Source: Linum tenue (lineage: Eukaryota; Streptophyta; Magnoliopsida; Malpighiales; Linaceae). From it: a DNA stretch of 64,000 bases. Shown here in pieces: positions 13,769-61,333 of the stretch; within the stretch, counting starts at the first letter, position 1; the number at the start of each line of letters is the position of its first letter. The notes beneath the pieces were generated by a model, which searched no databases, was not told the origin of the DNA, and saw nothing but the letters and a program-made list of their open reading frames with translations. Position numbers and translations under genes: made by a program. Where the stretch lies: assembly GCA_946122785.1 (NCBI GenBank), contig CAMGYJ010000009.1, positions 23,037,633 through 23,101,632 on the forward strand. The letters run 5' to 3'.

Positions 13769-15450
13769 GCTAGAAAAGGAGCTTGACAAAGTTCTGGAGC
13801 AGGAGGAGATTATATGGTTCCAGAGGACTAGAGAGAAATGGGTGAAGTTTGGCAAGCGCAACACTGCTTACTTCCATCAAAAAGTGATTATCCGAAGATG
13901 AAGAAACATAATTGTGAGCCCAAAAACCAGCAACGAAGAGTGGGTTTCTAACCGACACGAGCTGGCGGCTCTGGTTTTTAACTTCTTTGCTCTTCTGCAC
14001 TTGCAGGATGATCAAGAGTACACCGATGACATGCCAAAACATGCCTTTCCTAGGATTCTTTAGGAAGACCTCCTCCAACTCCTGCGCCCTTTCACGGAAG
14101 CTGATATTTACAAGGCGGTTCAGGATATGAAAACGTTTCAAGCTCCACGGCCGTATGGATTCCAAGCCATATTCTATAAAAAATCGTGGCAGGTGGTCGG
14201 TAAAGCTCTTATTGACTTGGCTCTTAGCATTTTCTTGACAGGGGTGCTGCCAAAGGAAGTATAGGAGTCGACAATTGTACTCATACCAAAGGTGGAACAT
14301 CCGAAGTTGGTCTCGCAGCTTCACCCGATTTCCCTCAACAATGTGTGCATTAAAGCTATCACCAAATCCATTACTAATCGGCTCAAACCCATCATGAGAA
14401 AGTTGGTGTCCCCGAAACAAAGTAGCTTCATCCCTGGGCGTCAGACCACAGATAACATCATTGTTCCGTAGGAAGTTTTACATTCTTTGAGGAAGAAGAA
14501 GGAAAGAGAGGGGGATAGTGCTGAAGATTGTTATTGAGAAGGCCTATGGCCGATTTCGATGGGAGTTTCTTCGGAAACTCCTAAGGAGCTAGGCCTTCCT
14601 ATCTCATGGATCAACTGTATTCTGTTCTTTGTCGAGCATAACAGAATTAGACTGTTGTAGAATGGAGAACTCTCCACCCTGACCACTCCCACTAGAGGAG
14701 TCTGGCATGGAGATCCTTTCTCACCTTATCTTTTTGTTTTATGCATGAAAACACTTTCTGACGGGATTGATCAGGGTATACAGGATAAACTCTGGAAATC
14801 CCCGAGGTTGTCCAAAGACTGCCCTGTGATATCTCACCTGTTTTTTGCATACGATCTTATCCTTTTTGCAGAAGCAGAAAGCTCCAAAGTTAGGATCATC
14901 GAGCAATGCCTCGATGAGTTTTGTCATAGCTCGGGGGAAAGAGTGAACTACAACAAGTCTACTATATTTGTCTCGGCCAACATCGATAGGAGGAGGGCGC
15001 GCCGTCTATCTACTAGAGCAGAGATTCCACACACAGTGGATCTGGGTTGGTACCCAGGGGTTATGATAGTCCACAGTCGGGTGACTAAAGCTAGATATCG
15101 AGAGCTCGTGCTTAGAATCCAGAAGAAGCTCGCCCCCTGGAAGACTAGACACCTCACCCTTGTAGCTCGGATTACAGTGGTGAAATCTATCTCTGCCTCT
15201 ATCCCTATTTATCCTATGCAAATAGAGCTACTTCCTATGAATGTTTGTAGGACTCTCAACCAGAATAATAGAGGCTTCATTTGGGGGCACAGAAGTCAAA
15301 AAGAAGCTCCACCTGGTAAGATGGCCACAGCTGCTACTGCCAAAAAATAATGGAGGTCTTGAAATCCGCTCGACGAGGGAAGTGAACCTATCAATGCTAG
15401 CTAAAGGTGGATATCGAATCATGCAGGAGAAAGAAAGTCTTTGGGTTTAA
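13769..15450 (+). pseudogene. L1-type LINE reverse transcriptase fragment
   Basis: This is a non-LTR retrotransposon ORF2 remnant with several stops and frameshifts. Recognisable pieces in order are FHQKVIIRR near 13880, the LIPK and SFIPGRQT motifs near 14280-14440, TTPTRGVWHGDPFSPYLFVL (14684-14743), the catalytic region SHLFFAYDLILFAEA (where FADD has become FAYD) near 14835, and the zinc-region-adjacent KNNGGLEIRS near 15345. The 5' half is missing because the hAT element entered it at 13768. Long dead. Confidence 0.88.
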
Positions 15451-17043: not shown

Positions 17044-18000
17044 TTAGATTTTATTCTCTAAATTTGCTATTGAATGTTGCAATTTTTCTAGCTTATTTAT
17101 TACTTGATTATTGGTTATCTCTTCAATTAATTTATTCACTTGATTATTGGTTATCTCTTCTTGTTCTAAATTTTGTTCTATTACTGGGATATGCCTAATT
17201 CTCTCTGATTGTGTTTTAATTAATCGTCTTTGATCTTGGGTTATCGATGGTCGACTAGGTTCTATTCTAACAGTCTTTAATGGTGCTTCTAGTTGAATTA
17301 AAGGTTTAAATAAATCTTCTATAGTAATTACTTCCTTATTTTTGAAGGTTAAGCTGTGGTGACTATTTGTTAATGCATAGTTTATTTGATAAGTTACTGA
17401 AAATGGTTTGCTATTTTCTTTCATAAAATTTTCTCTTTTTAATTCGTACTTTATAATGATGGAAGAGTCGAGATTACCATCTGCAAGGCTTAATCCTTGT
17501 TGCAGGTTAATATCAAATTTAATTATTCCTACTCCTAAATTTCCCGTTCCTTTAGCAATAATACTTTCTTCTTCGTTTAGGAGCCTATCATCACGAATTT
17601 CTAATTCCATAGGTGCGTCAATTCCTATTTTCATGGTTGATTTTAATATAATTTGAATTGTACTAATATGAATATAAGCTATTTTATTTCGTTCTTCTGA
17701 TCTTAGTTTAGCTAATCTTTTTCTGATTTGTTCTTTGTTTATTACTTGGATTAGGAAATCACCCTTAGTTTGATCAATAGGGACTGCTACTTCACCTATC
17801 ATTTTACCATATTTAATAATATTTTCTCTATCGAAAAGTTTTGATAAAAAAGACTTAGTGATAAAGTTCTGAGTTTCTGAAATAGTAAAATTAGTTTTTT
17901 CTCTAATTTTCTTAATGTCTATAACACCATCTAAGAAGTAGTTTTCATTATCATTTTTGTTTAAATAGTCGAAATAACTTGAGGTAGGATTATCAGACAT
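17044..18000 (-). CDS. Pararetroviral movement protein (30K superfamily), intact
   Basis: The uninterrupted 318-residue frame starts at ATG 18000 (MSDNPTSS). Caulimovirid movement proteins form tubules through plasmodesmata. Residues about 50-240 match the 30K-type core: an IGEVAVPI stretch near 70, GIIKFDINLQQGLSLADGN near 160-180 and a PFSVTYQINYAL segment near 200. The C-terminal 80 residues are polar with coiled-coil character and contain a duplicated EEITNNQV segment. It is the first gene downstream of the viral promoter, as in caulimo- and soymoviruses. A diverged relative of its 3' end is found at 45.54-45.73 kb. Confidence 0.85.
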   Translation of the reverse strand: MSDNPTSSYFDYLNKNDNENYFLDGVIDIKKIREKTNFTISETQNFITKSFLSKLFDRENIIKYGKMIGEVAVPIDQTKGDFLIQVINKEQIRKRLAKLRSEERNKIAYIHISTIQIILKSTMKIGIDAPMELEIRDDRLLNEEESIIAKGTGNLGVGIIKFDINLQQGLSLADGNLDSSIIIKYELKRENFMKENSKPFSVTYQINYALTNSHHSLTFKNKEVITIEDLFKPLIQLEAPLKTVRIEPSRPSITQDQRRLIKTQSERIRHIPVIEQNLEQEEITNNQVNKLIEEITNNQVINKLEKLQHSIANLENKI

Positions 18001-18199
18001 ACCTGACTTGCTTTTCTGATGAAATTCTGAGCCTTTTGATGATCGCTTGATGATTGTAGCTTCTTTCCGTGCGTTTGATTATATTGAAGATGATTGTGGC
18101 CTCCAGGATCAGTGGATCCAAGCCTTACAACTAGCTAGCTAGAGGGAGAGAGTAAACAGGCAATTTTATGGCCAAACTCGTTCTGCCTTATTTCATTGC

Positions 18200-18260
18200 A
18201 AACTCTTGCTCTTATATAGAGCTGAGGGGAGATACAAAGACGTCATTGCTTACGTTTGTG
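18200..18260 (-). promoter_or_regulatory. Pararetroviral 35S-type promoter
   Basis: The minus strand has a TATA box TCTATATAAG (18211-18220) in a CTCTATATAAGAG context and, about 25 bp upstream, TGACGTC (18239-18245) with a nearby CGTAAG. This resembles the as-1 element (TGACG pairs) upstream of the CaMV 35S TATA box. It lies between the transactivator and movement genes, the expected position of the pregenomic RNA promoter. A leader of about 190 nt follows before ATG 18000. Confidence 0.7.
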
Positions 18261-18415
18261 CAACAGGGACGTAAAGCTAATGCGTTAAAAGAAAACGCGT
18301 GAAACGATAAGAAAGCTGATAAAATACAATAATGCACGACTTTTTTAAAGGAGTCGGCCAACCTTCTTTTGTCGCTTTATTCCATGTTTGATTCCATTTT
18401 CTTCACATGCTTCTG

Positions 18416-19761
18416 TCAGTCTTGGTCTGCTGGTCCACTGATGTCTTCGTCAGTTGCTGCACACCACTCACAGAGATGGTCTTCATAGATAGTAAGCTCA
18501 TTGCATAACTGTTTCTTGATTTGAATGGGAAGGGCTGACAGATTCCCATTAATTTCCGTGAATTCCTTAATTTTATCTGTTATGATTGCCCATTCTTCTT
18601 TGGTCATGTTTCCTCTTGTTTTGCTGGTGATGATGGCATCGGGGCTGCTATAATTGACTTTAATCTGGCTTTCCGGTTCAATTTTGGTTAAAGCTCTGCA
18701 TACTGCAAGAAGACCCTTTACTTGGTAGTCTGGGTTCTTCTCATAGTCTCGTAGGTCATCTCTGGTAGGGTAATCATGGTTTGATACTCCCATGAGGATC
18801 ACTGCCTTTGATCCGATCAATAGTTTGTCTTGATCGAATACGGGGTAGCTGCTTGTATACTTGAGAAATATTTCTCTTTCCTTGGCGAATAGCTCGAGAT
18901 ATCTTCTGATTACGTTCCTCATTCTTTGTGGGAAGTATTCAAATACCTTCATGGTTGTAGTGTAGATAGTGTCGATTAATCCATATTGATGGAACTCAAA
19001 AGAGAGTTCTGGTGATGCTTCTTTTGTGATTACTGCTTTGGGTCCTCCTCGACTGACAGGGTAGAAACCCATGGTCGTATGTTTTTCTTCATAGTTGATT
19101 ATCATATCCCAGTTGGATATGAACTTCTGAAAGATTGGTTTTAATTGCTCTTCTTTTTCCTTGGTGGTTAGGATGCTTTTGATACTGGGTATCTTCATGA
19201 CGAGTTTCTGCGATTGTTGCTCTTGATTCTTGAGTGGTTCTTTCATTGCCATCACCTTGTATGATTGTCTGTATGCTTCGTCGGCTGCTTCTTTTGTTTT
19301 AAATGATTGATGTTGGACTGGTTTGCCGTTGATGTGCTGGCTAGCGATGGCCCAGTTATGATATACTCCTCGGTATGGTCCATTGAATATGACATACCAT
19401 TTGATGCTTTTTCTGTCGTCTTCTTCGTAGTGGGAATCTTTTGTTTCTTTTTCTTCTTGTTCAACGATGTCTGCCCATCGTGTCGTCTTTTGTATATTAT
19501 TGCTGGTAGTGGTGGATGATTGTATTGTTGTCGACTTTTCAGCATGTTCTGTGGTCAGTGTTGATGGCTTTCCACTAGTGGAGCTAGTTGCTAATGTACT
19601 GACGTCGATGTAGTTGATTTTTAACTGTTGCTGAATGACGTAGATTGATTGAATTATTGCTTCTTCCTCCCCCCTGCAAAGGAGAAGCTGTTGTTCCAGT
19701 GCTGCACTCTTTTCCTGCTTCTGCTTAGTTGATTGATGAGGGTTTTTATGAATCCTTCCAT
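18416..19761 (-). pseudogene. Pararetroviral transactivator/viroplasmin (one frameshift)
   Basis: This is the inclusion-body protein that lets ribosomes translate the polycistronic viral RNA. The likely ATG is at 19761, overlapping the last 16 nt of pol, but a frameshift near 19720 separates it from the main frame, which then stays open to 18416. A caulimovirid viroplasmin domain (RNase H1 N-terminal-like fold) is clear around 19260-19400: FNGPYRG, YHNWAIASQ and SFKTKEAADEAY. The rest (MGFYPVSRGGPKA and on) matches the core transactivator region. Confidence 0.85.
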
Positions 19762-21794
19762 TCTCGAGTCAGTGTGTCTGTGAATGGATTGTTGCTGGAC
19801 TTGATATACTTCAGATAAGGATTGTAATAATGGAGTTGTTGCTGCCACCTGATTAATCTTCCTTTGTTGAAATCTGCCTGAAGCTTGTACCTCCAAAAAC
19901 CTGTTACATATTTAGAGTCGGTTTGAAGTTCAAACCTTGTAGATAATAATTCAAGCTTCCATTTTTTCAATGTTCTGAGACAGGCTAGTGTCTCTAATTC
20001 GTGGATCGGATAGTTCTGTTCAGTGGCGGTAAACGTTCCAGAAATATATTTACATAATTTCTTAGAATATTTATCACTGTTGAAAGGAACTGATGATTGA
20101 GAACTTGAAAGTTCAATAATATTGTCCGAAGACTGATAATCTTTAGGCTCTTGGCCAGAGACAGTAGCCTCGTTATTCGTCTATTTTGACATTACCAAAA
20201 TTGTCCATTTGTAATATTCCTTACCATTTTGTATTGCTAACATACACCCTGCCCAAGTGTCCTTAGAGGCATCCGTTTGAATTATTAGAAAATCGTTTTC
20301 ACAAGGGTTATATAATTTTGGTAAATGCTGACATTTTTCCTTCATTAATAAAATTATTTTTGTATCCTGATCATTCCATGACCAAGGGATTTTGTCAGAA
20401 ATCTTTTTCTGTAAATGTTTTCTTTCTTTTGCTAAATCTTTTAAAAATCCTTGTTCGCTTATATAATTTAAGCATCCAAGAAAACGTTGAATTTGTTTTC
20501 TATTTTCAAGTTGGTTTGGGAATTTATCGATTTTTTCTTTAGTGTTTGGTGACAACTCAATTTCACCCAAATTATTAATCTTCATACCAAGATATTCAAT
20601 TTCTCTTTGAAGAAGTTTTGATTTCTTCTTAGAGATAATTAGACCTTTTTCTTTTATTCTCTGTAAAACTATCAAGATTTTTTCACGATGGTCTTCTTCT
20701 GATTGATTTGTGAAAATAATAATATCATCAATGTATGCCAAACAGAACGATTGAAAACCTTCTAATACATGATCCATAAACCGTTGGTAAATAGCTGGTG
20801 CTTGTTTCATTCCAAATGGGAGAACATTCCATTCGTAATGTTTTTGTGGTGGACATGAAAAGGCTGTTAAAGGTTTGGTATTCTCATGTAGACGAAGTTG
20901 CCAATATCCAGATTTAGCATCTAAACTACTAAACCAAGTTTGACCTTTTAATCTTTCTAATATATAGTCTTTCCTAGGTAGTTTATAGCTATCTCCTATT
21001 GTTTGTTCGTTTAGTTTTTTATAGTTTATTACCATTCTTCTTTTTCCTCTTTTGATTTCATTATTATTTTCTACATAAAAGGCTGGTGCACTGTGAGGAC
21101 TTTTACTTTCTCGTATTATTCCTTTTTCAGCTAACTCTGAACATTCCTTTTGGAATTCTTCTACATCTCGTTGAGTATATTGAATTTTGTTAGGGACATT
21201 AACTTCCATTTTAGGATCTTTTAGTTTAATTTCGATAAGTTCTTGATTGGTATTTTTATCTTTATCTAAAGGATGTTCACTACACACCTGGTCTAAAGTA
21301 TCCTCTAGAATGCTATAAGTAATCTGTATATATTCTAGTCTATTTTTGAGGTTTTGAAGCACAATTTTTAGCACTTCATTTTTTGTGATTATTCTTGTTG
21401 TGATTATCTTAGATTCCTGGTCTATTGTTTTAGGACATCTAAGGCTGATTGTTCTAATCCTTTGGATAAATGGTTGATATAATTTTAGAAAGTTATTTCC
21501 TATTATTATATCTAGTCATGAGTCATGTTGATAGATTGTTTTAGCTGTGAAGATATGTTTTTCAATAATTATTGGTACATATTGTTTTACATACCAAATT
21601 TCATGGATAGATTTGTCTGCCACTATAATTTTTAAAGGTTTTTCAAGTTTATCCCATTTTTTTATGGTTGATTTTTTGGCAAAACATAAGGTTGCCCCTG
21701 TATCAATATATGCTAAGAAGCTTTTCTTCTCTATTTCTATTTTAATAAATGTTGCGTTAGGATTGCCCTTAGTTAAAACCTTCTTCTGACTCAT
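19746..21794 (-). pseudogene. Pararetroviral protease-reverse transcriptase-RNase H (two stops)
   Basis: One frame of 683 codons runs from ATG 21794 to the stop at 19746, broken only by a TGA (21516-21518) and a TAG (20181-20183); no frameshift is seen. Domains in order are an aspartic protease with YIDTGAT near residue 25, a reverse transcriptase with the YIDD catalytic box near 20720 (preceded by the FGMKQAPA motif), and RNase H with an LQTDSKYVTGF motif near 19920. It converts pregenomic RNA to viral DNA. The start overlaps the coat-protein frame by 26 nt and the end overlaps the transactivator start. Confidence 0.9.
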
Positions 21795-23172
21795 CTGAAG
21801 AGGTTTCTGAGGTTGAAATATATTCAATAATTTCTATATCGGATAGTTCAAAATCTGTTTCTTCGATTGGTTCAAAACCACAATCGTAAGCTAATCTAAG
21901 GACTTCTTGTTTTCTAGTGTTAGTATTTTTCTTAGGACATCTATTTGCGTAATGTCCTTCTTCGTTACATAACCAACATCTACAATTTGTTTTTCCTTTA
22001 GGACAGTATTCTTGTTGTCTTGATTTTTGTTTAAACTGTTTTCTATTTCTGAAATATTTATTCGGTTTTCTAAACCTATTTTTTCTATATTCCTTGTAGG
22101 GTATTTTTCTCCATTTTTTATAATTTCTATATTTTTTCCGAGTTTTAATGATCTTACGATCATCATTACACCCATACTTTCCAACTCTGTCCATTGTTTG
22201 TTCACAACAGAGTTTAATTTTAGCTTCTTTCTTTAGTTTTTCCTTATTGCAAGCTTGTTTATGCCATTCTTATAAAACTAATATTCGTCCTCCTAATGTA
22301 TTTGGTATCTCTTCTCTAGCCAAAGTTTCATTAAAGGTAGCTTCAACTTTTTCAGAGACATTAGGTGGTAATTTAGCATAGAGTAATTTATCCATCTCTT
22401 TTCTTATCGAAGGGGTGACTTGATAATAATGTGTTCTGAATTCACAAATAAATGGTTCTAAGAAGCACATGTTGCAAATTCTAAGATTAGTTAAATGCCA
22501 AATAGCTTGTTGACTTATGGTTGTGTTTGGTTTATCTTCTCGAGGATGTCGTCCTAAGAATTCATGAGTTATTGCATTTAAGACTTTTTCAAAGGTATTC
22601 GTCGCATCCGTTGTTCCATATAACGTTGTCTTAGAAGGAATATCCATGTTGTTAAGATAATGATAAACTGCCCCAGTTGTTTTATATATTAAGAAATTAA
22701 ACATTTCATTAGGGTGTAATTTCTTTAGATCTTCATTAGTTTGTATTAGTAATCCTGTTCGATTTTTCCAGTCTTCTAATTCTTTTAATGGGTTGACGCA
22801 ACAATCAAGATCTAATATATCAGGATTGTTAAAACTAGTGGTGGAATATTTTGGTATGTAAGATTGAGGTATTTTACTCCATCCTCCCCCTTTGCGAGGT
22901 GTATACGAATTTTTATATAAGTATTCATCAAAAAATAGTTGACCATCTTTATAGTCATTAAAATCACGCTTTCGTGATGTTTCAGCTTGATCCTCAGTTT
23001 CAGTTTTCATGTAATTTGTATTTGTGTAATTTTTATAGGGGTTTTCGTCACTACTATAGTCAAGAACTATTTTATCGTTTTCTATATTTTCTTCTATATC
23101 TGGTTCTGATTCAATAGTAATTGCGGCTAGTAAATCGTTTAATTTATTAATCTGTTCGTCAATACTAGTCAT
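21769..23172 (-). pseudogene. Pararetroviral coat protein (one stop)
   Basis: One frame of about 467 codons runs from ATG 23172 to 21769, with a single TAA at 22270-22272. The first 300 residues hold an acidic N-terminus and the capsid region (FLIYKTTGAVYHYLNN near residue 160). After the stop the frame continues with a strongly basic stretch, then a zinc knuckle CWLCNEEGHYANRC (CX2CX4HX4C) and an acidic, serine-rich C-terminus. This is the standard caulimovirid coat-protein layout. The start overlaps the upstream frame as ATGA. Confidence 0.88.
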
Positions 23173-23594
23173 AGAAGTTTGTAGGGTGCCATGATAGTTA
23201 ATGGGATAGATTTTCCTGATTTATGCTCATTCAAATATTCTTTTATATCTTCAATTGTAATGCTTCTTTTATTATCTAATTTAATTATTATTTCTTGAAG
23301 TTTAATAATGATTTCCTTAAGATCTTCTACCGGTAATACTATTTCCTTAGAATTTGGAGTTGTTTTTCCCATTGCTATTTCTCTTTGTTTTATATCCACT
23401 ATTATATTGGTAATTGTATCCTTAGCGTGTTCTAAATCTGAATATATATCTTTTTGTTTTTCATTACCTTGATATTCTAATATTGATTTTAATTGCTTAT
23501 TATTGTCTTCTAATATATTTATTAGATTTCCTTGATATTCATCTATTTTTCTTCCTAATTTTTCTAGTTTTATCGAAATATTTTCAGTAGCCAT
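23169..23594 (-). CDS. Virion-associated-like pararetroviral protein (141 aa), intact
   Basis: The uninterrupted 141-residue frame starts at ATG 23594 and its stop overlaps the coat-protein start (ATGA). The protein is predicted mostly helical with long leucine/isoleucine-spaced heptads (EDLKEIIIKLQEIIIKLDN near 90-108), matching the coiled-coil character of caulimovirid virion-associated proteins. Assignment is by position and character. Confidence 0.65.
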   Translation of the reverse strand: MATENISIKLEKLGRKIDEYQGNLINILEDNNKQLKSILEYQGNEKQKDIYSDLEHAKDTITNIIVDIKQREIAMGKTTPNSKEIVLPVEDLKEIIIKLQEIIIKLDNKRSITIEDIKEYLNEHKSGKSIPLTIMAPYKLL

Positions 23595-23922: not shown

Positions 23923-26017
23923 AGTGTTTTTTCTTTCTCTTTTTCTTTTTCTTTTTGTTGAGCATGATCACGATTGAATCCAAACACATGGGTATCCTAA
24001 CTTGAACCCAAATCATCGCCTTTTCGCACCATTTCAACAACTATCCACTAGGTTTTCGTCTATGGCTTTTTGCACAAATCATCGTCTTTGCCCACCATTT
24101 CGCAGCCCATCTCGAAATATTGTCGGCAGAATCCTAAGTTGTTCCAAGCCACCGTTTCCCAAGGCCACTACCATGAGTTTTGTGTCGGGATCGAGTTTCA
24201 TCTTCTTTAGTGTTTTTTTCTTTCTTTTTTTTCTTTTTGTTGAGCATGATCACAATTGAACCTAAACACATGAGTATCCTAACTTGAACCCAAATTATCG
24301 CCTTTTCGCATCATTTAAACAACTATTCACTAGGTTTTCGTCGATGGATTTTTGCACAAATAATTGTCTTTGTCCACCATTTTGCAGCCCATCTTGAAAT
24401 ATTGTCGGCGGAATAATAAGTTGTTCCACACTATCGTTTCCCAAGGCCACTACCACGAGTTTTGTATCAGGACCGAGTTTCATCCTCTTTAATGCTTTTT
24501 TTTTCTTTTTCTTTTTCCTTTTTGTTAAGCATGATCACAATTGAACCCATACACCTGAGTATCCTAATTTGAACCCAAACCATCGCCTTTTCGCATAATT
24601 TCGCAACCCAACTCGGAACATTGTCGGTGGAATCCTGAGTTGTCCTCTTCGACCTTTTACTATGGCCGCAACCAAAGATCCATACTAGATATGCCCTATA
24701 CAATCCTCGACATCGCTTACCAATTCACAACCTTCTCGAAACACTGTCAACAGATTCCTAAGTTACCCCCCTCCACTGTTTCCCAATGTCGCTACCGAAA
24801 ATCCATATACCAGATCTACTCAATGTTGGCGAGTTTTGTATTGAGACCGAGTTTCGTCTTTAGTATTTTTTGTTTCAGTTTTTTTCCTTTTTGTTGAGAG
24901 CATGATCACAATGGAACTCAAATCCAAGGGTATCTAACCTAATTTGATCCGGTCAAAGCGACTTGAAACCTACTTATGTATTTATAAAATTTTCTTTCTT
25001 TTCTTTTGGTTGGGAAGACAATTGTATCCAAATCTAAGGTATTGACGAGTGTTGTATTGTGAGCGAGCTTTATCCGCTTTGTAGTTGGCATGTTGGACCA
25101 AGTGTTAATTTGTTAAAAATTTGATCAAAGCGAGTTGAATACATTGCTGGCCAGTTTTAGATAGAAAGCGAGTTCTATACGCTTTAATGTTTTTTTATTT
25201 CTCATTTTTCATTTTGTTTAGAATGACAATTGAACTCTGACCCATTGTTGACGTGTTTCTTATCGAGAGCGAGTTTTATCTTCTTTTGTAATTGACAGGT
25301 TGGGGTAATTGTGAATTTGTTAAAACTGGGTCAACCTGGTCAAAACGAGTTGAACGCAGTGTTGAGAGTTTGGGGTCGTAAGCGAGTTGTATCCACTTTA
25401 GTATTTTTATTATCTTTTTCCTTTTGGTTGAGAGTGACAATTGAGTCCAAACGCACGAGTATCCAACCTAATTCGACCCGACCAAAGCGACTTGAACCCG
25501 AATTTACAAGTTTCGGCGGGAGCGAGTTATTTTTTTTGTAATTGGGGGGTTGTGTCAAGTGTAAATTTGCCCAAAACTTGGTTCAACCAGGTCAAATCGA
25601 GTTGAAACTGGTGTTGACGAGTTTTGAGTCGGTAGCGAGTTTTAGCTTTAGTGTGTTTCATTTTGCTTTTTCCTATTGCTTTGATAAAGACTATTGAACC
25701 CAAATCCATGGATATCCAACCTAATTTGAATCGATCAATGAGAGCTAAACCTCCTCAAACCTGCAATTAGTACAAAAAATTCATAAAGGAGAACCACAAT
25801 TACTTCAAAAAAAAAAAAAAAACAAACAAAGAGTACGACTATGTTTGGCTACAATTTTAGAAGTTTTATGTTTCTAAAGTTGAAACCAAGCCAAACACCT
25901 CTAAAGTTTCGATTTTTAAAAAGAAGAAGCTTTTCGTAACTTAAAAGCAGAAAGTCCGATTTGAAAATACAAAATTGTACTTACAATATATTATTCGTTT
26001 TCAAGAACTGAATCGCT

Positions 26018-26052
26018 ATTTGCCGCCCGTCGTTTTACTATTTGCCGCCCAT
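26018..26052 (+). repeat. MULE left terminal inverted repeat
   Basis: CTATTTGCCGCCC occurs twice with a 22-bp period and is mirrored at 33386-33422. Direct duplication inside the terminal repeat suggests a two-site transposase-binding arrangement. The exact outer limits are set by the target duplication. Confidence 0.8.
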
Positions 26053-26069
26053 AGTTAGGACAAAAAAGA

Positions 26070-26410
26070 CGAATGTGCCCCTGCCCCCCTAACCCTATCT
26101 ATCCATCTCCTCCCCCTCCCACCCACCCACACCCCCACCCCCAACCCCCACCCCATCTGCTCTCTGTCGCCAACGACCCCCCCACCCCACCCCCTCTGTT
26201 CGCCGACGACCCCCCACCCCACCGCCGACGAGCCGCCGCCGCCTTCCCCTTCCTCTGCTCGCCGACGAGCCGCCGCCGCCTTCCCCCTCTGTTGCTCTCT
26301 GCTCGCCGATGCGCCGCCGCCGCCTTCCCGCTCCTCTGCTCGCCGCCACCGCCCAGGAGAAGCAGTCGCCGCCCAGGAGAAGCCGCGGCCGCCGCTGTTC
26401 CAGTCATCGT
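26070..26410. repeat. C-rich and GCCGCC low-complexity tract
   Basis: Runs of CCCACCC and CCAACCCC, then GCCGCCGCC repeats, occupy the subterminal region of the MULE. The minus strand is G-rich enough for G-quadruplex formation. The arginine-rich frames read here on both strands reflect the low complexity and are not genes. Confidence 0.7.
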
Positions 26411-26469
26411 CGAGGTATTTTTTTTTTAAAAACAGTATCGCCGCCGTCCGCCTGGCCGGAGTGGGCGCG

Positions 26470-26665
26470 GTCCGCCCGGTCTGGTCGGACCCCGTCCGCC
26501 CGGTCTGGTCGGACCCCGTCCGCCCGGTCTGGTCGGACCCCGTCCGCCCGGTCTGGTCGGACCCCGTCCGCCCGGTCTGGTCGGACCCCGTCCGCCCGGT
26601 CTGGTCGGACCCCGTCCGCCCGGTCTGGTCGGACCCCGTCTGCCCGGTCTGGTCGGACCAGCCTG
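26470..26665. repeat. 24-bp tandem repeat, 8 copies (MULE left subterminal)
   Basis: The unit CCGCCCGGTCTGGTCGGACC plus CCGT repeats eight times, the first seven essentially identical. It contains a GGTC-TGGTC-GGACC inverted core. A similar GC-rich array with GGTCCGACGACGG words sits near the other end of the element (32960-33125). Confidence 0.85.
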
Positions 26666-27237
26666 GTCGGACCCATCTGATTGGGTTTCGGGTTTGCTTT
26701 AAATTAATATTTATTACATTTATTTTAAATACAATTGTTAGTATCTTAATTAGTTTATTATTGATAGTTGAATAATTAGTATATAATTGGTAATTATATA
26801 ATGTGTTAGTTTATTAATTGGGTAAGTTGAAATAATTATTTAAATAACTATATATTGTAAAGTAACTATCTAGTTAAATTAATTAGATAATCAATTGATT
26901 AGCAATTTGTTCATATTCATAATTTATCAATTACTAATAATTATTGACTATGCTAATAGATCATTTATTATAATAAATATCTAAAGAATTATTGGATTAA
27001 ATAAATTGTTAATTTTAAATAATTATCTATGATGTTTTAGTTAAGTAATTGAGTAAGTTGAAATAAATATTTAAATAACTACCTATCGTATTAAGTAAAA
27101 TAACTATCTAGTTAAATTAAGTAAAATCAAACGAAATAAATTGTATGTATCATAATTACTCTATAAAACAACAAGTAATTGCTCAACAAATAATTTCCAA
27201 TAAGATATTAATAGAAAATTATTGTCTATATTTAGAG

Positions 27238-29369
27238 ATGGCGTCATCTGGTAATTCTGGAGGATCACGTAGTTCTGGAGGACCAGGAAAGAGATTGAAA
27301 AGATTCATTGGGCGTAACATTAGCGCTAGTGTGAGAAATAAGGACCGAAATGATGGAGATGAGCCACAGCCTCAGCCTCAGCAATAGCCACAGCCACAGG
27401 TGACACCGATGAGATATAGGGCAGACGGTTTCCCTCAGTTTGATTTTCGGATGCCTAGTATGGGTGGTAGTGGAGCTGGTCCCAGTATTGATCATCATAC
27501 TTCACCGTTTGAGCCTTCAGACGAGATTGACGACGAGTCGGAGGAGTATGAGTCGGATGCTGTTGAGACACGTATTCCACGAGTCAGTCCGATCAGAGAC
27601 AGAGGTGCCCCCAGCGTTGCGTCACCTGTCGTTACTGGGGTTCATGCTGTTACTGGGATCTATAGAGACCATGCGGGGCGTTTCTATAGAGCTCCACAGC
27701 CTGGTGAGGGCCAGAGTTCTACTGCTGATGTAGGAGAGGCCTGGGAGCCTAGAGGACCGTGTCCTGGAGGGCCGAGCGACCCGAGTTTGCTCTGTAGCTT
27801 TCTTGGGCATGTTGCCCACCGTCTGTACACGGGAGAGGCTGATAGAGGGGTGATCACTTGCTACGACAGGAGTGCGACCCTTTGTCACGTTCTCGGCGGT
27901 TATCAGATAGCAGATGATAACGCTAGGACTACCGTAGAGACATCGGGCCTTGCTCACCTCGTTGATATCACCTTCCAGAGCGAGTTGGACCCTGCTCTCA
28001 TCTCGGCGTTTGTGGAGAGGTGGCAGCCGGATACTAACACCTTCCACATGCCGTTTGGAGAGATGACGATCCTCCTTCACGACGTGGCACACATTCTTGG
28101 GCTTGCGGTTGACGGAGAGGCGATGGTAGTGGATCCGAGGCAGTTGGAGAAGTTTGCACTGGAGGCTGACATCCGAGCACTACTGGGATTAGATCGTGAC
28201 GAGGATGAGTACGGGGCGCAGGTTGGCGAGGTTGCTAGTCTGTCTAGGTGGTACAGAGGATTTGGTTTGTTGGGTGTGGGAGCTTTGACTCATTTGCAGC
28301 AGTCTGGTCCGCCAGCTAGAGAGGCTCAGTGTTACCTTCTTTTGCTGCTTGGGTCCACACTGTTCGTAGATAAGAGTAAGGACCGCGTTTCTGCTGTTGT
28401 GAACTTGTTTGTGAAGAGGCCGGATATGCTAGGAGAGTATGCGTGGGGGGCTGGAGAACTTGCTTATCTGTATAGGCAGCTTGGTATTGCCTCCCGGGCG
28501 GAGGCTAAGGGAGTGTCGGGTTGTCTGACTTTACTACAGTGTTGGATTTACGACCACTTTCCTACTTTGAGGCCTAGTCGGTTGGAGCCACGAGAGCTGG
28601 AGCGGGGGCAGGCAGGAGCATTCAGGTGGCGCGGTACAGCACCCCGGTCGAGTAAGAGGAGGGATGCACAGATGCTGGCTTATTATCGGCAGGCGATTGA
28701 TAGTTTGACCTCTCAGTCAGTTAGTTGGACTCCGTATGGTCGTAGTCCGCATCTGACGGTGAGACGTACCTTGTATCAGGGCCTGCTCAGATTTGCAGAG
28801 ATAGCAGAATATTATGATCCCACTAGGTGCCTCCGACAGTTAGGCTACGTGCAGGGAGTACCGTATCCACCGGAGCGTCCGCTTGTTGTGCGTCGACCTG
28901 CTTCCACGCTTGGATACTCTCTTAGCTACCAGTCTGTCTATGATTCGTATTGGAACAACTTGGGGGTGCATAGTGTGCATCTGGACCTTTTTTCTACTCC
29001 GATACGACGTAGGCCATGGGAGTTTGTTGAGAATTACATGTCGTGGTACATTAGGCACTCGCACCCACATATACTGAGTGACAGCCGACCTGTTGATGAC
29101 ATCTCGGATGCTGATACGGTTAGTACAATTATATTTTAAATTATTTGTATTAAATTATTTGTAACTAATATGTATTTAAATTGTATGGTTTTTTATTACA
29201 GTTTTCACGCGAGATGTGGGTTGAGATATCTCCCGTGATGGATGCTGCACAGGGTAGTAGGGAGGAGTGGATGGCTAGCGCCAACGAGTACTACGACTTA
29301 TGTCATGGAGTTGGGAACATGTGGCCCGAGTTTAGGAGGAAGTCGGGTTTTCTACCACCTCCACAGTAG
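27238..29369 (+). pseudogene. MULE-borne plant mobile domain (PMD/MAIN-like) gene, one amber stop
   Basis: Exon 1 runs from ATG 27238 to 29118 and exon 2 from 29202 to 29369, joined by an 83-nt intron (GTTAGT...TTACAG) in phase 0: 682 residues with one TAG at codon 50 (27385-27387), inside a QPQPQQ-stop-PQPQ run. After a low-complexity N-terminus (glycine/serine, then acidic residues near 95-110) comes the PMD core, from GHVAHRLYTGEADRGVI near residue 190 to about 560, with the HMPFGEMTILLHDVAHILGL signature near 275-295. PMD proteins include MAIN and MAIL1 and are common passengers of plant transposons; their molecular activity is not settled. It is convergent with the transposase gene. Apart from the one stop it looks intact. 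Confidence 0.85.
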
Positions 29370-29590
29370 TTGTATGATTATTATGTCATATGTATGAGTG
29401 TTATTTGTTGTTTTTAGACGAGTTGACTTATGTGTTCTACTACGACTTATGTTATGTGGTGTTCAGTTGCTTATTTGTTGTTTTGGGACTATGACTTATG
29501 TTATTTGTGTAATCTGATTATGACTTATGTGGTTTATGTTGTACTTTGGATGTTTTTATTATATCATGCTTCCATGTGACGTAAACAAAC

Positions 29591-29648
29591 TTCATTACAA
29601 TTTATTTAAATTGAAGACGTTCATTACAATTTATTTAAATTGAAGACG
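29591..29648. terminator. Duplicated palindromic segment between convergent MULE genes
   Basis: A 29-bp unit (TTCATTACAATTTATTTAAA plus TTGAAGACG) is repeated twice in tandem between the 3' ends of the two MULE genes. It includes the AATTTATTTAAATT near-palindrome and AT-rich polyadenylation-like sequence on both strands. A shared 3'-end region is plausible but not shown. Confidence 0.35.
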
Positions 29649-29657
29649 AGTACAAGT

Positions 29658-32522
29658 TTATTTCTTTGGACCCCTCTTTTTGCGTGATGGAAAGTTACTC
29701 GCCGCACCCCCAAGATCGAACCACATTTGAAAAAACGGCGCGAAATATGTCTCCCATCCATCCACGCTTTCTTGGTGACCGTTTGGCCACATGGCATGTG
29801 GAGGGGGCATCGGTATCTTGTCCGCCGGGAAAGAGAGGTTGATCCAATGATTCTGGACGAAATGCACAACAATGACTCCTCTAGGGTGGGCTTCCCCATG
29901 TATGTTGTCCACTGGCAGAATGGTGCATGGGTACGATTGTGGAGTTGGGTAGAGGTAAGTGCTGTACATGACAACCGCCAAATTAAATAGTGTGGCAAAT
30001 ACGAATAGATCCACACCCATCATCCAATGATGTTGAGTCGTTGGTGCTGTAGTAGTGATGTCAATGCGTCTGATTGCATAATTGATGCCGGGACCGTAGA
30101 TGGGTGCGTATCGCCAATCGTGCTCACGCATTTCTTCAGCAAGTCGTGCCCTCACCCCTGTGAACCCTTCTTGACTACCATATAGTGCAAAACTAAGTGC
30201 ACGAAACCCACAATGACCGTCTGGCACCGGGTCGTGGATGGCAATGACAAGCGGCCGAATGAAGACAGGAAGGTGTTCCATGTGTGCGTAATTAGAATGG
30301 GGGCTGCTGGGTCCAGGGATATCTGTGAAGGAAATAGGTAATCAGCACAAATGCGATGTAAAATATTAATATAAATAATTACACTTATGAAAAAATTAAA
30401 TTGTACCTGTGTCAGGACAGTTGTATCTGTTGTTATCTTCTTGATCATCACACTCCTCCGCTGCATGGTCGTCTGACGGGTACTCGTCTGTCTGAGTCCC
30501 CGTGGACTTGGTACTAGTCGACTTTGTAGACCCCGACGTTGTGCTTCCCGACTTCTTTTTCATGCTTTTCTTATTGCCTCGTAGTATCTTTTCCCACCAC
30601 CGTTTCGTTCTTCCAGTTGATTTTTTTGCTGGGCGACCCTTTCTAAATTCGTTCACTTCTGGCTCGTGAATGTTGTCCTCCGCCGGGTGGAGACCGCGAA
30701 ACACGTTCTTTGCTGCCTTTTTCGTTGCCTCTGGTCCTCTGCGTACAGCCTCATCAACCAACTCCCGAAGGTGAGATCTAGCCTCCTCCTCCTGGGGAAC
30801 GTACTCCTGAGCATTGGGTGGATGCTCGTATGACAGTGTCCGCCAATATATATGAATATCACCGGGATATATCTCTATGTCTCGCGCTCTGTCATCCATA
30901 ACTTGACTTCCACACCTCAAGCCGTGTGTCACAGAGAAATGACATGCACATCGGGAGTTCTCATTTTTCTCCAAGCGGGCAGCCAATTCTTCTTCATCCT
31001 CCTTCATTAATATAATTGCCTGCATGCTGACCTTCCTTCTCAAGAATGTGAATGGTGTACCACCGGATGCTGAAAGGGTTTTCTGTCTAGAGTTTTCCAA
31101 CATCATCATAACCTCCCCGAGTTGGTTAGTAATGTAGCGGTGGTTTCCTTTCCATACAGTGTCCATAGATCCCCGCGAGTTGTGGAGGAAAGTCTTCAAA
31201 GCGGAATGTGACGACTCAACCCTGTTTGTGCTCGTATTTCCTAGATGAAACACATTTTTTGTATGACAAACAACCCACTTTTCTCGATGTTGCCACCACA
31301 CTCCCTGTATGTATTGCAACAGACGTGGTTCTTGATTGCCCCATCTTGTCCTAAAGCGGCCAAACGCGGCCAACATTCCTTGCTCTGACCAAGAATAAAG
31401 CATAGGACACCAATATTGGTCGTACGCCTCGTTGACCAAATCCATCCTGTCCTTCCCAAATATTTCCAAACACTTCTTCTGCACATTGGTGTTGATGTGC
31501 CAAACACATAGCAAATGCGGGGTGCGGGGGAAGACCACAGGAACCGTAGCAAGTAGTCCACCTTCGTGGTCGGTGACGATGACAGAGGGCACGCGAGGAT
31601 GGAGCAATTGTTGTATGCACTGCAACAGCCACAGATACGACTCTTTTGTCTCATCCTTCATGAGAGCACAACAGATGTTGAAATTCTTCCCAACTGGAGT
31701 AGCACCTACGACCTCCACCCATGGCCATTTATATGCATTGGTCTTATACGTTGAGTCGATCAGAATCACGTACGGCCAAGCCTTCAACATCTGGATGGAA
31801 GTTGGATGGGCAAAAAAAAGATGTGTCAGCACGTCGTCATCGTCCTTCATAACCTCTGTATGATAATTCTCACGTTCAGCTTCTAGCAACGCATACTACA
31901 CTGCATTCATCTCGCCCATCTCGTCTTTCCTAGACTTGGACCCGAGGTTATACATCTGCCTTTGGGTGTGATGCCCTTTGTCACCCTTCTGCTTGTTTAT
32001 TGTCTGCTTCTGTTGCGACGGAGGTACCCCAGCATCTCTCATCTGCCTAAGAGATTCTTTATCCTCCTGACTCAATTTATTCATTTGACTGTGGCCCTCG
32101 GGATAAAGCATCTTCTCATGACTGTGATACCCTCGCCTTAAACCGGTTCCTTGCTCCGCGACTCCTTGTATCTCCCAGAATGTAGGTCCATCAAGAGCAT
32201 CTGGATTAACCAGTAGTTCTTTGATTTTAATCTTGAACATGCATCCCGCTCCTTTTGAACTTGTATTGCCACGACTCTCTTTGGAAGGATCCGGCTTGTA
32301 TGACTTCCTCTCCCTACTGCATCTGTCGCAATACATATAACAGATACCCAATGATCTTTTGTTGCCCAACTCACGTGGCTTCATCGATCCCTTAGTTAGA
32401 AAGAAACCAAGAGACATCGCGATGTTTTTGGTCACTGTTACAGCATCTTCGAAATTGGCATATCGGACGCCATTGAGAAAATGGTCTGTGTAATCACCAA
32501 TTAGTTCAACATTGTCAGCCAT
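29658..32522 (-). pseudogene. MULE transposase fused to OTU cysteine protease, one amber stop
   Basis: Exon 1 runs from ATG 32522 to 30407 and exon 2 from 30322 to 29658; an 84-nt intron (GTACAA...TTCACAG) joins them in frame, giving 926 residues with a single TAG at 31896-31898. The order is a FAR1-type DNA-binding region (residues ~10-120, with CYMYCDRC), a MULE transposase DDE domain (VILIDSTYKTN, then VIVTDHEGG, then TNRVESSHS as D, D and E), a degenerate SWIM finger (CACHF...GLRCGSQ, final histidine lost), a lysine/serine/threonine-rich linker, and an OTU domain. The OTU part has the catalytic DGHCGFRALS box and a C-terminal NHWINL histidine. OTU proteases remove ubiquitin; a role in stabilising the transposase is only my guess. 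The fusion rests on frame continuity and good splice sites. Confidence 0.85.
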
Positions 32523-32534
32523 GTCCACCTGCAA

Positions 32535-32955
32535 TTATGATTTTGACTCTCGTTAGAAATGTACAAATTATATGATTCTACAAAATTAAACTAAATGCAA
32601 TAATTTAATTAAGTCTAAAAAATACAGATAATTTAAATATAAATTATTAAACCAAATTAGCTCTACGATTTAAATCTAAACACAATAAAACTAATTTGCG
32701 CTACAACAAAACACAATCGCTTAATTAAACTAATTTTGCTTCAATTGACTCTACAAAATTAAACTACATGCAATAATTTAATTAACTCTACAAAATAACG
32801 ATAATTTGACAGTAAGAAACTAATTAGCGCTACAACAAAATACGATTCGCTTAATTCAAACTACATAGGAATTTAACTATGTAAAATAAAAATAAAAGCA
32901 ATAAATTAAATATAAATTATTAGCTCTAGAAATAAAATAGAAAAAATACGACACT
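32535..32955. other. AT-rich leader region of the MULE transposase gene
   Basis: About 420 bp upstream of the transposase start contains repeated AATTAAACTA and ATTCGCTTAATT words and no gene. An AG before GTGGACATGG at 32526 could be a splice acceptor for a leader intron. The promoter probably lies in or beyond this block. Confidence 0.4.
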
Positions 32956-32959
32956 GCTA

Positions 32960-33125
32960 TGCAACCGGTCGTCGGACCCCGTCCGCTCGCCGTCATCGGA
33001 CGGCGACCGACGCCGGCGAGCGGACGCGGTCCGACGACGGCGAGCGGACTCGGTCCGACGACGGCAAGCGGACGGGGTCCGCCTCCGTCTAGCGGACGGG
33101 GTCCGTCGCCGGCGAGCGGACCGAA
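32960..33125. repeat. GC-rich repeat array (MULE right subterminal)
   Basis: Degenerate tandem words GGTCCGACGACGG and CGAGCGGAC recur about six times at roughly 24-bp spacing. They mirror the GC-rich 24-bp array near the left end. The paired position suggests protein-binding sites or a transcription or methylation barrier. Confidence 0.7.
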
Positions 33126-33385
33126 AAAAAATTCAGGATCAGAGGTTTGTTTACCTGCTTCGCTGGTCCGACGACGGGGTACGGCTGCCGTCCAGTGCCC
33201 GGCGAATTATCCTGACGAGATTGGTCCGGTGGCCGGCGAGTTTGGCTGCCGTCCGGTGGCTGTGGTGTTTGTGGGGGGTTGGTGGTCGGGACTCGGGTAG
33301 TGTGTAAGTTGTTTAAAAAACCATTTCAGCGAATAGAATATAAAGAAATATTTGGAGGGCAAAATTGTCCTTTTAGTGTTTTTTA

Positions 33386-33422
33386 CGGGCGGCAAATAGT
33401 AATTGCCCGGGCGGCAAATAGT
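33386..33422 (-). repeat. MULE right terminal inverted repeat
   Basis: The inverted words GGGCGGCAAATAG occur twice with a 22-bp period, mirroring the left end. The target copy TTTCAAGAA follows at 33430-33438. Confidence 0.8.
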
Positions 33423-33951
33423 AACCCTCTTTCAAGAAAACCTAATTTTCTTTCATGTATATCATTATAATAAAATAAATTGAAAATTTTTATTATTTAA
33501 TATGAGATATCTCTAATGTGATCCATTTAAATATATTTTTTATTTTTAGAATTTGTATTCATATCGTTTTTAGTCATTTTACACTGCCTCTTATATTAGT
33601 AAGTAATTCTGATAGTTTTTCAGCTAAAAATTCAACTGATTTTTTAAATACTTTTTGAAAAGATGAGAGAAGTTGTTTCATTCTACAAAAGTTACATCAA
33701 GATCAACTAATAGCCATACAAATTGAAACAATAGCATCATGAAAAAAGTTTAAACATAAATAATCTATTCGACGACCTTTCTACCTTATGCAAGTTCATC
33801 GACCATATGCTATTGTAAATAACAAACCTTTGAAAAGAATGATTAAGAATGAAATAAAATGACTTTCACTTTTTGGTCAACATTAAAAGTATTACTCTTT
33901 GAAATATTTATTTTTCGATACGCGAAGCGATAGCAAGCGGGCTTTTGCTAG

Positions 33952-41186: not shown

Positions 41187-42743
41187 CTACGACGACGAGG
41201 CTCGAACCCTAGGGGACAACTTGACTTCGAGCGGGTGCTTCATAACAACGGTAAACTCAGGCTTCTCCGCCAGATCAACCTCCCCTGCAGCTTCCCACTT
41301 GAAGTTCCTCACAAGATTAGCCACAAAGTACTCGAGATGCAACATCGCCAGAGTATACCCAGGACACATCCTTCTCCCAGCACCGAACGGCATCATCTTG
41401 ATCTCCTTGCTTCCGGTCAAATCGAACTCACCACCACCACCTTCGAGGAACCTCTCCGGCTTGAACGCCATGGGGTCCTCCCAGACCTTAGGATCCCACC
41501 CCATCTCCGCCACCATGAAGTTAACAGCAGCGTTCTTGGGGATCACAAACTTGCCGTCCAGCACCGTATCCTCCGTCACCGAATGCGGCAGCACGAAATG
41601 ACCCGGCGGGTGTCTCCTCAATCCTTCCAAGCACACGGCTCTCAGGTACCTCATCTTCCCCAAATCCTCCTCCAAAACCTCCTCACTTCCTTCCACCACT
41701 GCGCTTTCAACCTCCCGAAACAGCTTCTCCTGAACGTCAGGGCACTTCACCAAGTTCGCCATGATCCACTCCAACGCTGTTGTAGTCGTGTCAGTCCCTC
41801 CGTCGAGGAACTCGGAGCACAAGCCCAGAATTTCCCCCTCGTTGAGCTTCCTCTTCCTCTGCTCTCCATTACCATCAGTATCTGGTAGCTCCATCTCAAG
41901 CAATGAATCCACGTAGCAGGTCCGTGCTTGTTCTTCTTCCCCCTCCCCTTTTCCAATTTTTTCCTTCCTGGCTCTGATTAGAGGGAGAAGGACCTGATGC
42001 TGCTCGTGACGAAGCTGATGAAATTCCTTCCATTGGCGGCGGAGGAGGAATTTAGTGATGCTCGGCCAGAGATTGAGTATCTGAAAGCGACGGAATCCGA
42101 GCAGCATCCTCCTCTGAACGCGCCCCACCTCATGGATTTGATCCTCCTCCAGCCTGTCGCCGAAGCACATGAGCACCAGCAGGGCGAACATGGCGTGGTG
42201 GATGTGATCCTTCAGCCTCAGGCTGCTCTGTTCTCGGTTGTCGCGGAGGCGGCGGAGGAGGATTTGGAGGACCCATGAGCGAGCGCGGGAGAAGGACCTG
42301 ACGCGGGAAGGGTGGAGGATTTGGGAAGTGAGGTTGCGTCGGAGGAGGCGCCATGTGATGCCGTAGGAGGCGGAGCTGATGTTGTGCTGGTTGGAAGAGA
42401 CGATTTTGGAGACAGGGGGAGCCGGCGGCCGGTCGGCGAAAACGGCGCCGTCCTGGATGAGGGCTTGGTGGGCTAAGGAGTGGGAGGAGATGAAGATGAC
42501 CGGACGGGAGAAGATGCGGATTTTGATGATGGAGCCGTACCTGGCGCGGAGCTTAACGAGTGCTGGTTCCAGGTCGGAGAATCCTTTGCTTCTCAGCATC
42601 CAGAGGAAGGTGCCGATGATTGGGATGGAGAATGGTCCTGGTGGGAGCTTGCTGTGTGAGGGCTTGAAGAGGAGGGTTTTACAGAGTACGAGGGTCAGAG
42701 AGGTGATGACGGCGGCGACGATGATCCAGCTGATTTCCTCCAT
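41187..42743 (-). CDS. Cytochrome P450, CYP89A-like, intronless
   Basis: This membrane-bound, haem-thiolate monooxygenase of 518 residues is encoded without introns, as is typical of plant CYP89. An N-terminal ER anchor (residues ~5-26) is followed by the PPGP hinge (34-37). Further motifs are the I-helix GGTDTTTT, the K-helix ExxR in CLEGLRRHPP, FKPERF, and the haem loop PFGAGRRMCPGY with the ligand cysteine near 460. I chose ATG 42743 because it directly precedes the anchor; the frame is open 45 codons further upstream (to 42878), but that stretch is not P450-like. In Arabidopsis CYP89A9 acts in chlorophyll breakdown; the substrate here is unknown. No disabling change is visible. Confidence 0.93.
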   Translation of the reverse strand: MEEISWIIVAAVITSLTLVLCKTLLFKPSHSKLPPGPFSIPIIGTFLWMLRSKGFSDLEPALVKLRARYGSIIKIRIFSRPVIFISSHSLAHQALIQDGAVFADRPPAPPVSKIVSSNQHNISSASYGITWRLLRRNLTSQILHPSRVRSFSRARSWVLQILLRRLRDNREQSSLRLKDHIHHAMFALLVLMCFGDRLEEDQIHEVGRVQRRMLLGFRRFQILNLWPSITKFLLRRQWKEFHQLRHEQHQVLLPLIRARKEKIGKGEGEEEQARTCYVDSLLEMELPDTDGNGEQRKRKLNEGEILGLCSEFLDGGTDTTTTALEWIMANLVKCPDVQEKLFREVESAVVEGSEEVLEEDLGKMRYLRAVCLEGLRRHPPGHFVLPHSVTEDTVLDGKFVIPKNAAVNFMVAEMGWDPKVWEDPMAFKPERFLEGGGGEFDLTGSKEIKMMPFGAGRRMCPGYTLAMLHLEYFVANLVRNFKWEAAGEVDLAEKPEFTVVMKHPLEVKLSPRVRASSS

Positions 42744-42912
42744 GGTTGCTGCTGCTCTGCTCTGCTCGCTAACAGAAGAGGCAGAGCAACTACCCACGAA
42801 GTTTGAGTCCTGATAGCTGAGAAAATATAGATACAGAGAGTGATGTGCTAAGGGTTTCAACCATGAGGAGTTAACCAAACTCCGCTATTACCTCGTCAAA
42901 CTCCAGTATATT

Positions 42913-59710: not shown

Positions 59711-61333
59711 TGAACCCTTCCGGGTGAGTATTATCTAACTTGATTTATGATTATATGAGTTTATTGTACATGAAAATGAGGTGGGTTTTGAATTTGATCC
59801 TTTTGAAATGTAAGTCTGAATGACTCAACCCGAATATCACAATAAAATCCCACCTAAGGCCCAGTATAAACCTTAAATGGGTGCAAGTATGTTTAAATAT
59901 CAATCCGGGCCGGCCCATGTACCCATACTTCAGTTGTTTGAAACATTATCTAGCGGAATGAAGTTTCTAAGAATCTCTACAATCTACGATTGAAAATGCA
60001 AGACTTGAGAAGTAAAAGGGTGGAAAACTCTTGGCGAGAAGCTTAACTCGGGTGTTGCTTCCCCTTAACTAACTAACATGAATCATGGGATCGAATGAAA
60101 CGGTGTGTGACAAGGCAATTGCGACCCGTAAGAGGTGCAACAATGGTTAGAAACCATCCTCTCAATTGCTAGGCCAAGGAAAGCATTAGAGGCTACAATT
60201 GTAGCCCTCTTGGCCCTAGCTATTGAGGGTTGACTCACCTTCTCCCTCAAACCAAGATTTGGACGGCATAATCACAATTAACCTAGGTGTCTAATTCAAG
60301 TTTAGAGGTTTGCCCTACATTAACCTAGTTCATGGAATGCCTAAGAAAACCCAACTCAATTTGAGCCTCTTAAGATAAGGGGGCTTCTCTCTAAGCTAGG
60401 TTAGAATAGCACAATAGATTGCCAAGCACACAATATGCACAATCACCATGAAAATACCTCAATTCTTAAATTAAGCACCACCATCACACAATCATTCGAT
60501 CCACACAATCAATTACATGGTAAAAGTTTGGTAACTACAACACCCAAGTGAAAAGGGAAACTACTCCATGCTAGACAATGGAAGAACACAAAGGAAGAAG
60601 AAAGAAACCATCATTGTGTTGCCTCCAACTCTCTTTTTGCTTGTAGGTATCCTCCTTTGAAGAAGAACTTCCAAAATCTTCACTTGGAGCAAACCCTAGC
60701 CTCTTCTCCTCCTTGATTCGTGACTTTCTCTCTCTAGGGTTTCAAGAAGAAGAAGGTTTCTCTCACTTTGGGATCCCACCTCTTCTTCCTTTCAGCTCTC
60801 CTTTTATAGCCTGATTTCCTAGTTCACGGTCCCAGTTCGCAGCGGTGAACATCTGGAGCGGACCGTGAACTGGGCTAAAATGCACAACTTTCATTTGTTG
60901 AGCTCGCGGTCCATGGCTTCAGTTCACGGTCTGCCTCATCGTCAGTAACCTCTGAAACTCCTCTGGTAGCCCTGCGGTTCGCTGTTTGTGGTTCCAGTTC
61001 ACGGTCCTGGCGAACGTGAACTCGCAGCTTTGACCGTGAACTGTTGCTGGATCCTCCTCTTTGCCCGATCTTTGCTCCTTTTCTTCCAACTTTCGAATCC
61101 GGGGTTGGTTCCACCTGTTAGACTCTGAAACACACTGAAACAAAACAAACCTAGTGCAAAACTACCCTTTTTGGAGCTCAAATGCCATAAACGTCCAAGA
61201 GAAACAGAGATAAAAAGTGTACATTTAGGCCAGAATCACCTGCCGCGGCTAGCATCTAGAGGCAAAATACATGACCTAGAATCGACCTTCCACGAGACGA
61301 TTAGGGTCGTAGGGGTACTGAACTAACCCATCA
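59711..61333 (-). mobile_element. LTR D, solo LTR of the same architecture
   Basis: Read on the minus strand it starts TGATGGGTTAGTTC and has a TTTCAG-rich segment followed by an array of GTTCACGGTC/GACCGTGAAC palindromic words (60820-61045). Then come an AACCCTAGAGAGAGAAAG block and a long tail, the same order as LTRs A, B and C. CATTT occurs at 59706-59710 and 61334-61338 as a possible 5-bp target duplication, which would make it a 1.6-kb solo LTR. The lower border is less certain than the upper. Confidence 0.5.

Follow-up and report, generated by a model that had tools for sequence, protein, structure and literature searches.

The 64,000-nucleotide stretch of the Linum tenue genome analyzed here (contig CAMGYJ010000009.1, positions 23,037,633 to 23,101,632; in the following, the window) contains a Mutator-like element (MULE) whose transposase gene is predicted to continue, across a short intron, into an OTU-type cysteine-protease domain. 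We describe the element and its edges, the two frames that it encodes, and gene models from five plant genera in which this fusion recurs. On the minus strand, exon 1 of the gene (30407–32522) encodes an N-terminal region, the MULE DDE transposase core, and a linker; a predicted 84-nt GT-AG intron of phase 1 follows (30323–30406), and exon 2 (29658–30322) encodes the OTU domain and ends in a stop codon. The joined product comprises 926 positions before this final stop, including an amber codon at 31896–31898, which is the single in-frame stop of exon 1. The initial annotation had proposed one MULE gene with a C-terminal OTU domain, and no in-frame stop across the join other than one amber in exon 1. 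Both proposals are borne out, the first by the frames of the window, the predicted structure of the OTU domain, and the gene models of relatives. The gene sits in a bounded element that exceeds the interval 29658–32522 to which that annotation was confined: inverted arms flanked by the same 9-mer delimit a whole MULE of 7,422 bp (26008–33429). A plant mobile domain (PMD) gene (27238–29369, plus strand) faces the transposase gene tail to tail and has an in-frame stop at 27385–27387. The window copy of the transposon looks broken because both genes carry in-frame stops, although its ends are in place.

In the part of exon 1 that follows the amber codon, the Pfam MULE model (PF10551) is matched with E=1.1e-25, above its cut-off, and we take DSTYK, TDHEG, and RVESSH to be the motifs of the DDE core. 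The frame had been annotated as "FAR1, DDE, SWIM-like". The DDE assignment holds, whereas the frames of the window show no FAR1 or SWIM match in Pfam; a SWIM-like CxC...H...C pattern was identified by eye, and the first transposase frame gave one sub-threshold, unrelated Pfam match and nothing else. A FAR1/AFT-type DNA-binding domain is, however, present in relatives: in the Tripterygium protein P0027, Pfam places AFT above and FAR1 just under the cut-off, and a family profile matches AFT2. With NCBIfam, the window transposase part gave weak IS256/IS1249 matches and the window OTU and PMD frames gave none, and the IS256 match is below the cut-off in P0027 and in the Mercurialis protein P0006.

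An 84-nt AT-rich intron in matching phase 1 had also been proposed, and the coordinates and a GC content of 24% (48% in exon 1 past the amber codon, 50% in exon 2) agree with this, the splice itself being predicted. A frame match alone was rejected as proof of the intron. Within the range scanned in the window, 58 GT-AG pairs leave the frame open, and frame matching is therefore weak evidence for a splice, which is why the junctions of relatives were used as splice evidence. Donor (CAG/GTACAA), pyrimidine-rich acceptor (TTCCTTCACAG/A), base composition, and a junction common to three Linum models together single out the 84-nt intron as the predicted one.

The fusion in gene models of relatives

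All relatives considered here are computed gene models. The OTU exon alone as query retrieved four proteins, all from Linum (L. tenue and L. trigynum), and in each of the four, transposase C-terminal sequence stands ahead of the OTU domain in one chain. P0001–P0003 read through the junction that is predicted in the window, and P0001 shares 91% identity with the window in its OTU domain. When the complete joined protein served as query, with the amber position written as X, 31 proteins were retrieved: 1 from Linum trigynum, 2 from Mercurialis, 22 from Saponaria, 4 from Silene, and 2 from Tripterygium. A profile of the OTU domain, for which the window and three Linum proteins were combined, matches 27 of these 31 (E<=1.4e-6 in a set of 35 sequences). 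We take the five genera to represent four families. Plant proteins that unite transposase and OTU domain, for which the initial annotation had proposed a search, are thus found among the gene models, and its reservation that the two might always be separate genes in relatives does not apply to these models. Viral contigs with transposase and OTU domain were also scanned, and no relatives were found there.

The distant genera keep the same domain order and a similar linker motif, and this bears on the possibility that predictors merged neighboring transposase and OTU genes. All relatives are indeed computed models, and the 58 frame-keeping GT-AG pairs of the window would leave room for such an artifact, but the three Linum models share one junction, the window needs just one short, well-formed intron, and order and linker motif recur over large distances. 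We regard a merging artifact as the least probable of all explanations.

In the 21 proteins in which both parts are of sufficient length for a comparison, the pairwise distances of transposase and OTU domain correlate with r=0.98, and none of 5000 permutations reached as high a value; as Saponaria paralogues make up 17 of the 21, a small number of deep splits largely determines this value.

The OTU part of these proteins is sparsely annotated. PF02338 appears for none of the 35 relatives in the precomputed Pfam column, and in rescans of 12 of the 35, the OTU match was under the cut-off or absent. This may be because the Pfam OTU model scores below its threshold. An annotation gap is thus indicated, although UniRef calls the three Linum pieces P0002–P0004 "OTU domain-containing protein", so that the domain as such has been noticed. 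Some relatives carry a misleading name: the MULE-OTU proteins P0006 (Mercurialis) and P0027 (Tripterygium) are called "PKS-NRPS hybrid synthetase cheA-like / CHGG_01239-like" at source, apparently a misnomer, and a clover association study lists a gene under the PKS-NRPS hybrid synthetase name (PMC9868827).

The OTU domain and its putative role

The Pfam OTU model (PF02338) matches exon 2 with E=0.0028 and 18.6 bits, below its curated cut-off of 23.3, and the OTU fold is assigned from the predicted structure and not from this model. A confident structure model of the window OTU domain matches A20, VCPIP1, and OTUD3. Comparison with the PDB by sequence alone gave weak matches (nairovirus OTU, E=0.0016; OTUD1, E=0.14). 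In P0027, the predicted structure agrees with a Mutator/IS256-type transposase core as well as with an OTU fold, and its transposase part fits the fold of ISCth4, which is of the IS256 type. The catalytic residues in the joined protein of the window are Cys743, in the DGHC motif, and His864. The complete OTU domain with catalytic motifs that had been annotated is thus supported with respect to both residues and the modelled fold, but not by the Pfam score. Loss of the catalytic residues across the family, which had been considered as well, is not seen: in the family alignment, 29 of 32 aligned residues retain the Cys and 18 of 19 the His.

The third catalytic residue is less straightforward. 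In known OTUs, it is Asp, Asn, or Glu, usually two positions after the His. Asp740 (33/33 aligned residues) and Asp736 (31/32) could be candidates for this role in the present family.

It might be argued that the OTU domain is a captured host gene fragment and passive cargo, as with many MULE gene pieces, and gene capture by MULEs is described as common (PMC2528002). However, passive cargo would be expected to degenerate and disappear, whereas the fusion spans five genera, transposase and OTU domain diverge in step, and the catalytic residues are mostly kept, so that we consider passive capture highly improbable.

With a probability of roughly 55%, our reading is that the window holds a broken Mutator-like transposon in which the transposase continues into a predicted OTU protease, likely a deubiquitinase that acted on the transposase itself. 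We infer activity on ubiquitin for this domain. Tethered in cis, it would free the transposase of degradative ubiquitin, and perhaps do the same for proteins nearby on the donor or target DNA, and the transposase–DNA complex would thereby persist until cutting and rejoining are complete. The nearest support for such protection in cis is indirect and comes by analogy from the VTD deubiquitinases of Helitrons, which are active and for which protection from the proteasome has been suggested (PMC9741609). We also propose, tentatively and with slightly less than even confidence, that an old flowering-plant Mutator lineage has permanently incorporated a deubiquitinase into its transposase, combining DNA cutting and ubiquitin editing in one chain with a displaced third catalytic residue, and that it thereby outlasts host degradation of the transposition complex.

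Several observations weigh against a transposase with a permanent and active deubiquitinase. In-frame stops lie in both the transposase and the PMD gene of the window copy. Four proteins of the whole-protein search (P0005, P0011, P0017, and P0023) are without a full OTU domain: P0011 and P0023 end ahead of the linker, P0005 ends within it, and P0017 departs from the family sequence just past WVDVGSDG, with which the OTU motif begins. A rebuilt OTU profile detects the P0017 stub (E=2.5e-6), but not P0005, P0011, or P0023. Truncated models are the likely cause. P0005, however, is the closest full-length relative (Linum trigynum, 49% identity, in a cluster of 26 sequences), and it may have a natural OTU-less end. 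The whole-protein query favors matches that share OTU words, and the OTU part as query, limited to proteins of fused length, found none among 231 candidates. The full-length model of P0027 has low overall confidence (predicted local distance difference test, pLDDT, 61.5; predicted template modelling score, pTM, 0.39). With regard to the active site, Tyr replaces the catalytic Cys in 3 of 32 aligned residues, and because all 20 aligned residues two positions past the catalytic His are hydrophobic, where an acidic residue or Asn is usual, the triad must presumably be completed otherwise, or the enzyme may be weak.

The substrate could also be a different one. The OTU domain may act in trans and have its substrates in chromatin or among repair proteins, such as histone or clamp ubiquitin, and in this way make the target accessible or direct the repair that follows excision. 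A role of transposon Ulp1 and OTU domains in repair after transposition has been proposed by Bao et al. (PMC2836005), and a tether to the DNA-bound transposase would put the OTU domain at the cut; we regard action in trans as unlikely, albeit as the strongest competitor. Another possibility is that the domain mainly cuts proteins, be it by self-processing in the linker or after its release, so that transposase and OTU domain would work separately. OTU-like proteases process some viral polyproteins, the Linum linker between the two domains is rich in Ser, Thr, and Lys, and in P0027, residues 629–683 between the domains form a long linker of low confidence (pLDDT < 50); however, a cleavage site was not found, and the folds that match closely belong to deubiquitinases, which makes self-processing quite improbable. 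We rank protection of the transposase in cis highest, followed by a substrate in chromatin or repair and then by self-processing.

Transposons with OTU domains have precedents. Closest in arrangement is Ginger1 of animals, whose cut-and-paste transposase carries a C-terminal OTU or Ulp1 domain in one protein, sometimes with introns (PMC2836005). It differs in its Gypsy-integrase-type transposase, its CCGG/CCGT target sites, and its listed animal hosts, and is not a Mutator element, whereas the window has a MULE domain and a 9-bp duplication instead of that transposase type and those sites. Table 1 of PMC6446971 gives an "Ovarian Tumour Gene" under other motifs and open reading frames (ORFs) for the Hydra MULE MuDR-6_HM (group 14), which is cnidarian and has no terminal inverted repeat listed; the table is silent on whether the OTU is fused, and it lists an OTU for no plant MULE group. 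OTU and VTD Helitrons likewise have a deubiquitinase-type domain within the transposon's own protein, with activity demonstrated for VTD, but they are rolling-circle RepHel elements (PMC9741609, PMC2836005); transposon OTU domains had not yet been assayed at publication, according to the authors of PMC9741609. That ULP1-type proteases are established in MULEs, as stated in the initial annotation, is correct for plant MULEs (PMC2528002). KI-MULE, for example, carries such a ubiquitin-like-protein protease, but it is ULP1 and not OTU and lies in reverse orientation to mudrA, while melon and rice ULP1 MULEs show both orientations (PMC2528002). In the five frames of the element that were scanned, there is no Ulp1 (PF02902) match up to E=1.

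A literature search over titles and abstract openings, in one case among the best 20 of 172 matches and with most subscription papers outside its scope, found no paper on a plant MULE-OTU fusion, which does not show its absence from print. In a survey from 2021 of 18,744 MULE-derived FAR1 genes, a word search of the main text gave no "OTU", "ovarian", or "protease" (PMC8599713). The plant fusion, unmatched in the literature searched, hence adds a further form to the OTU-bearing transposons already known from Ginger1, Helitrons, and one Hydra MULE. OTU thus joins ULP1 among the proteases of plant MULEs, and proteases of ubiquitin-type marks therefore recur across unrelated transposases. The MULE-OTU lineage, with five genera and 22 separate matches in Saponaria, offers an opportunity to test whether a plant transposon may govern the ubiquitination of its own products.

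Ends of the element, the PMD gene, and neighboring features

The edges of the element are marked by an identical 9-mer, TTTCAAGAA, as left (25999–26007) and right (33430–33438) target-site duplication; the two copies match perfectly, and the 9-mer occurs once more in the 64 kb, at 60740. The left inverted-repeat arm (26016–26080, plus strand, 65 nt) is 75% complementary to the right arm (33357–33421, minus strand). The unit TATTTGCCGCCC is doubled in the left arm, at 26017 and 26039, and the right arm has the repeat unit twice as well, at 33387 and 33409. The inverted ends are imperfect, and the outermost 8 bp of the two element ends agree in 2 of 8 positions. The window thus has the DDE transposase domain, the terminal inverted repeats, and the target duplication of a MULE, the latter with 9 bp, where 8–11 bp, and mostly 9, are expected. 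A second copy of the element was not found within the window. Inside the ends lie subterminal 24-bp tandem arrays on the left (26470–26659, plus strand, 7.9 copies, 99% alike) and on the right (32997–33121, plus strand, 5.2 copies), which are mutually inverted and related over 127 nt with 71%. They could be binding sites of the transposase or the PMD protein.

Exon 1 of the PMD gene (27238–29118, plus strand; PF10536, E=2.1e-61) is followed by a predicted GT...AG intron of 83 nt and phase 0 (29119–29201) and a predicted exon 2 with 55 codons and a stop (29202–29369). This convergent gene would be the second, separate gene of the element, and it is ordinary in this respect because PMD genes are listed for plant MULEs, antisense in several groups (PMC6446971, Table 1). 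The PMD-carrying groups 42 and 45–50 of that table share with our element the second gene and often the 9-bp target duplication, but no OTU is listed for them.

Elsewhere in the window, four caulimovirid-type ORFs at 17047–23220 (minus strand; movement protein, Cauli_VI, A3 peptidase with reverse transcriptase, and coat domain) likely represent an endogenous pararetrovirus. A retrotransposon ORF with Gag and aspartyl protease (3642–5813, plus strand), hAT-like fragments recognized by eye (10613–12675, plus strand; one frame scanned, no Pfam match), and a reverse-transcriptase fragment (14661–15347, plus strand) are also present, and an open cytochrome P450 frame lies at 41190–42884 on the minus strand (PF00067, E=8.6e-96).
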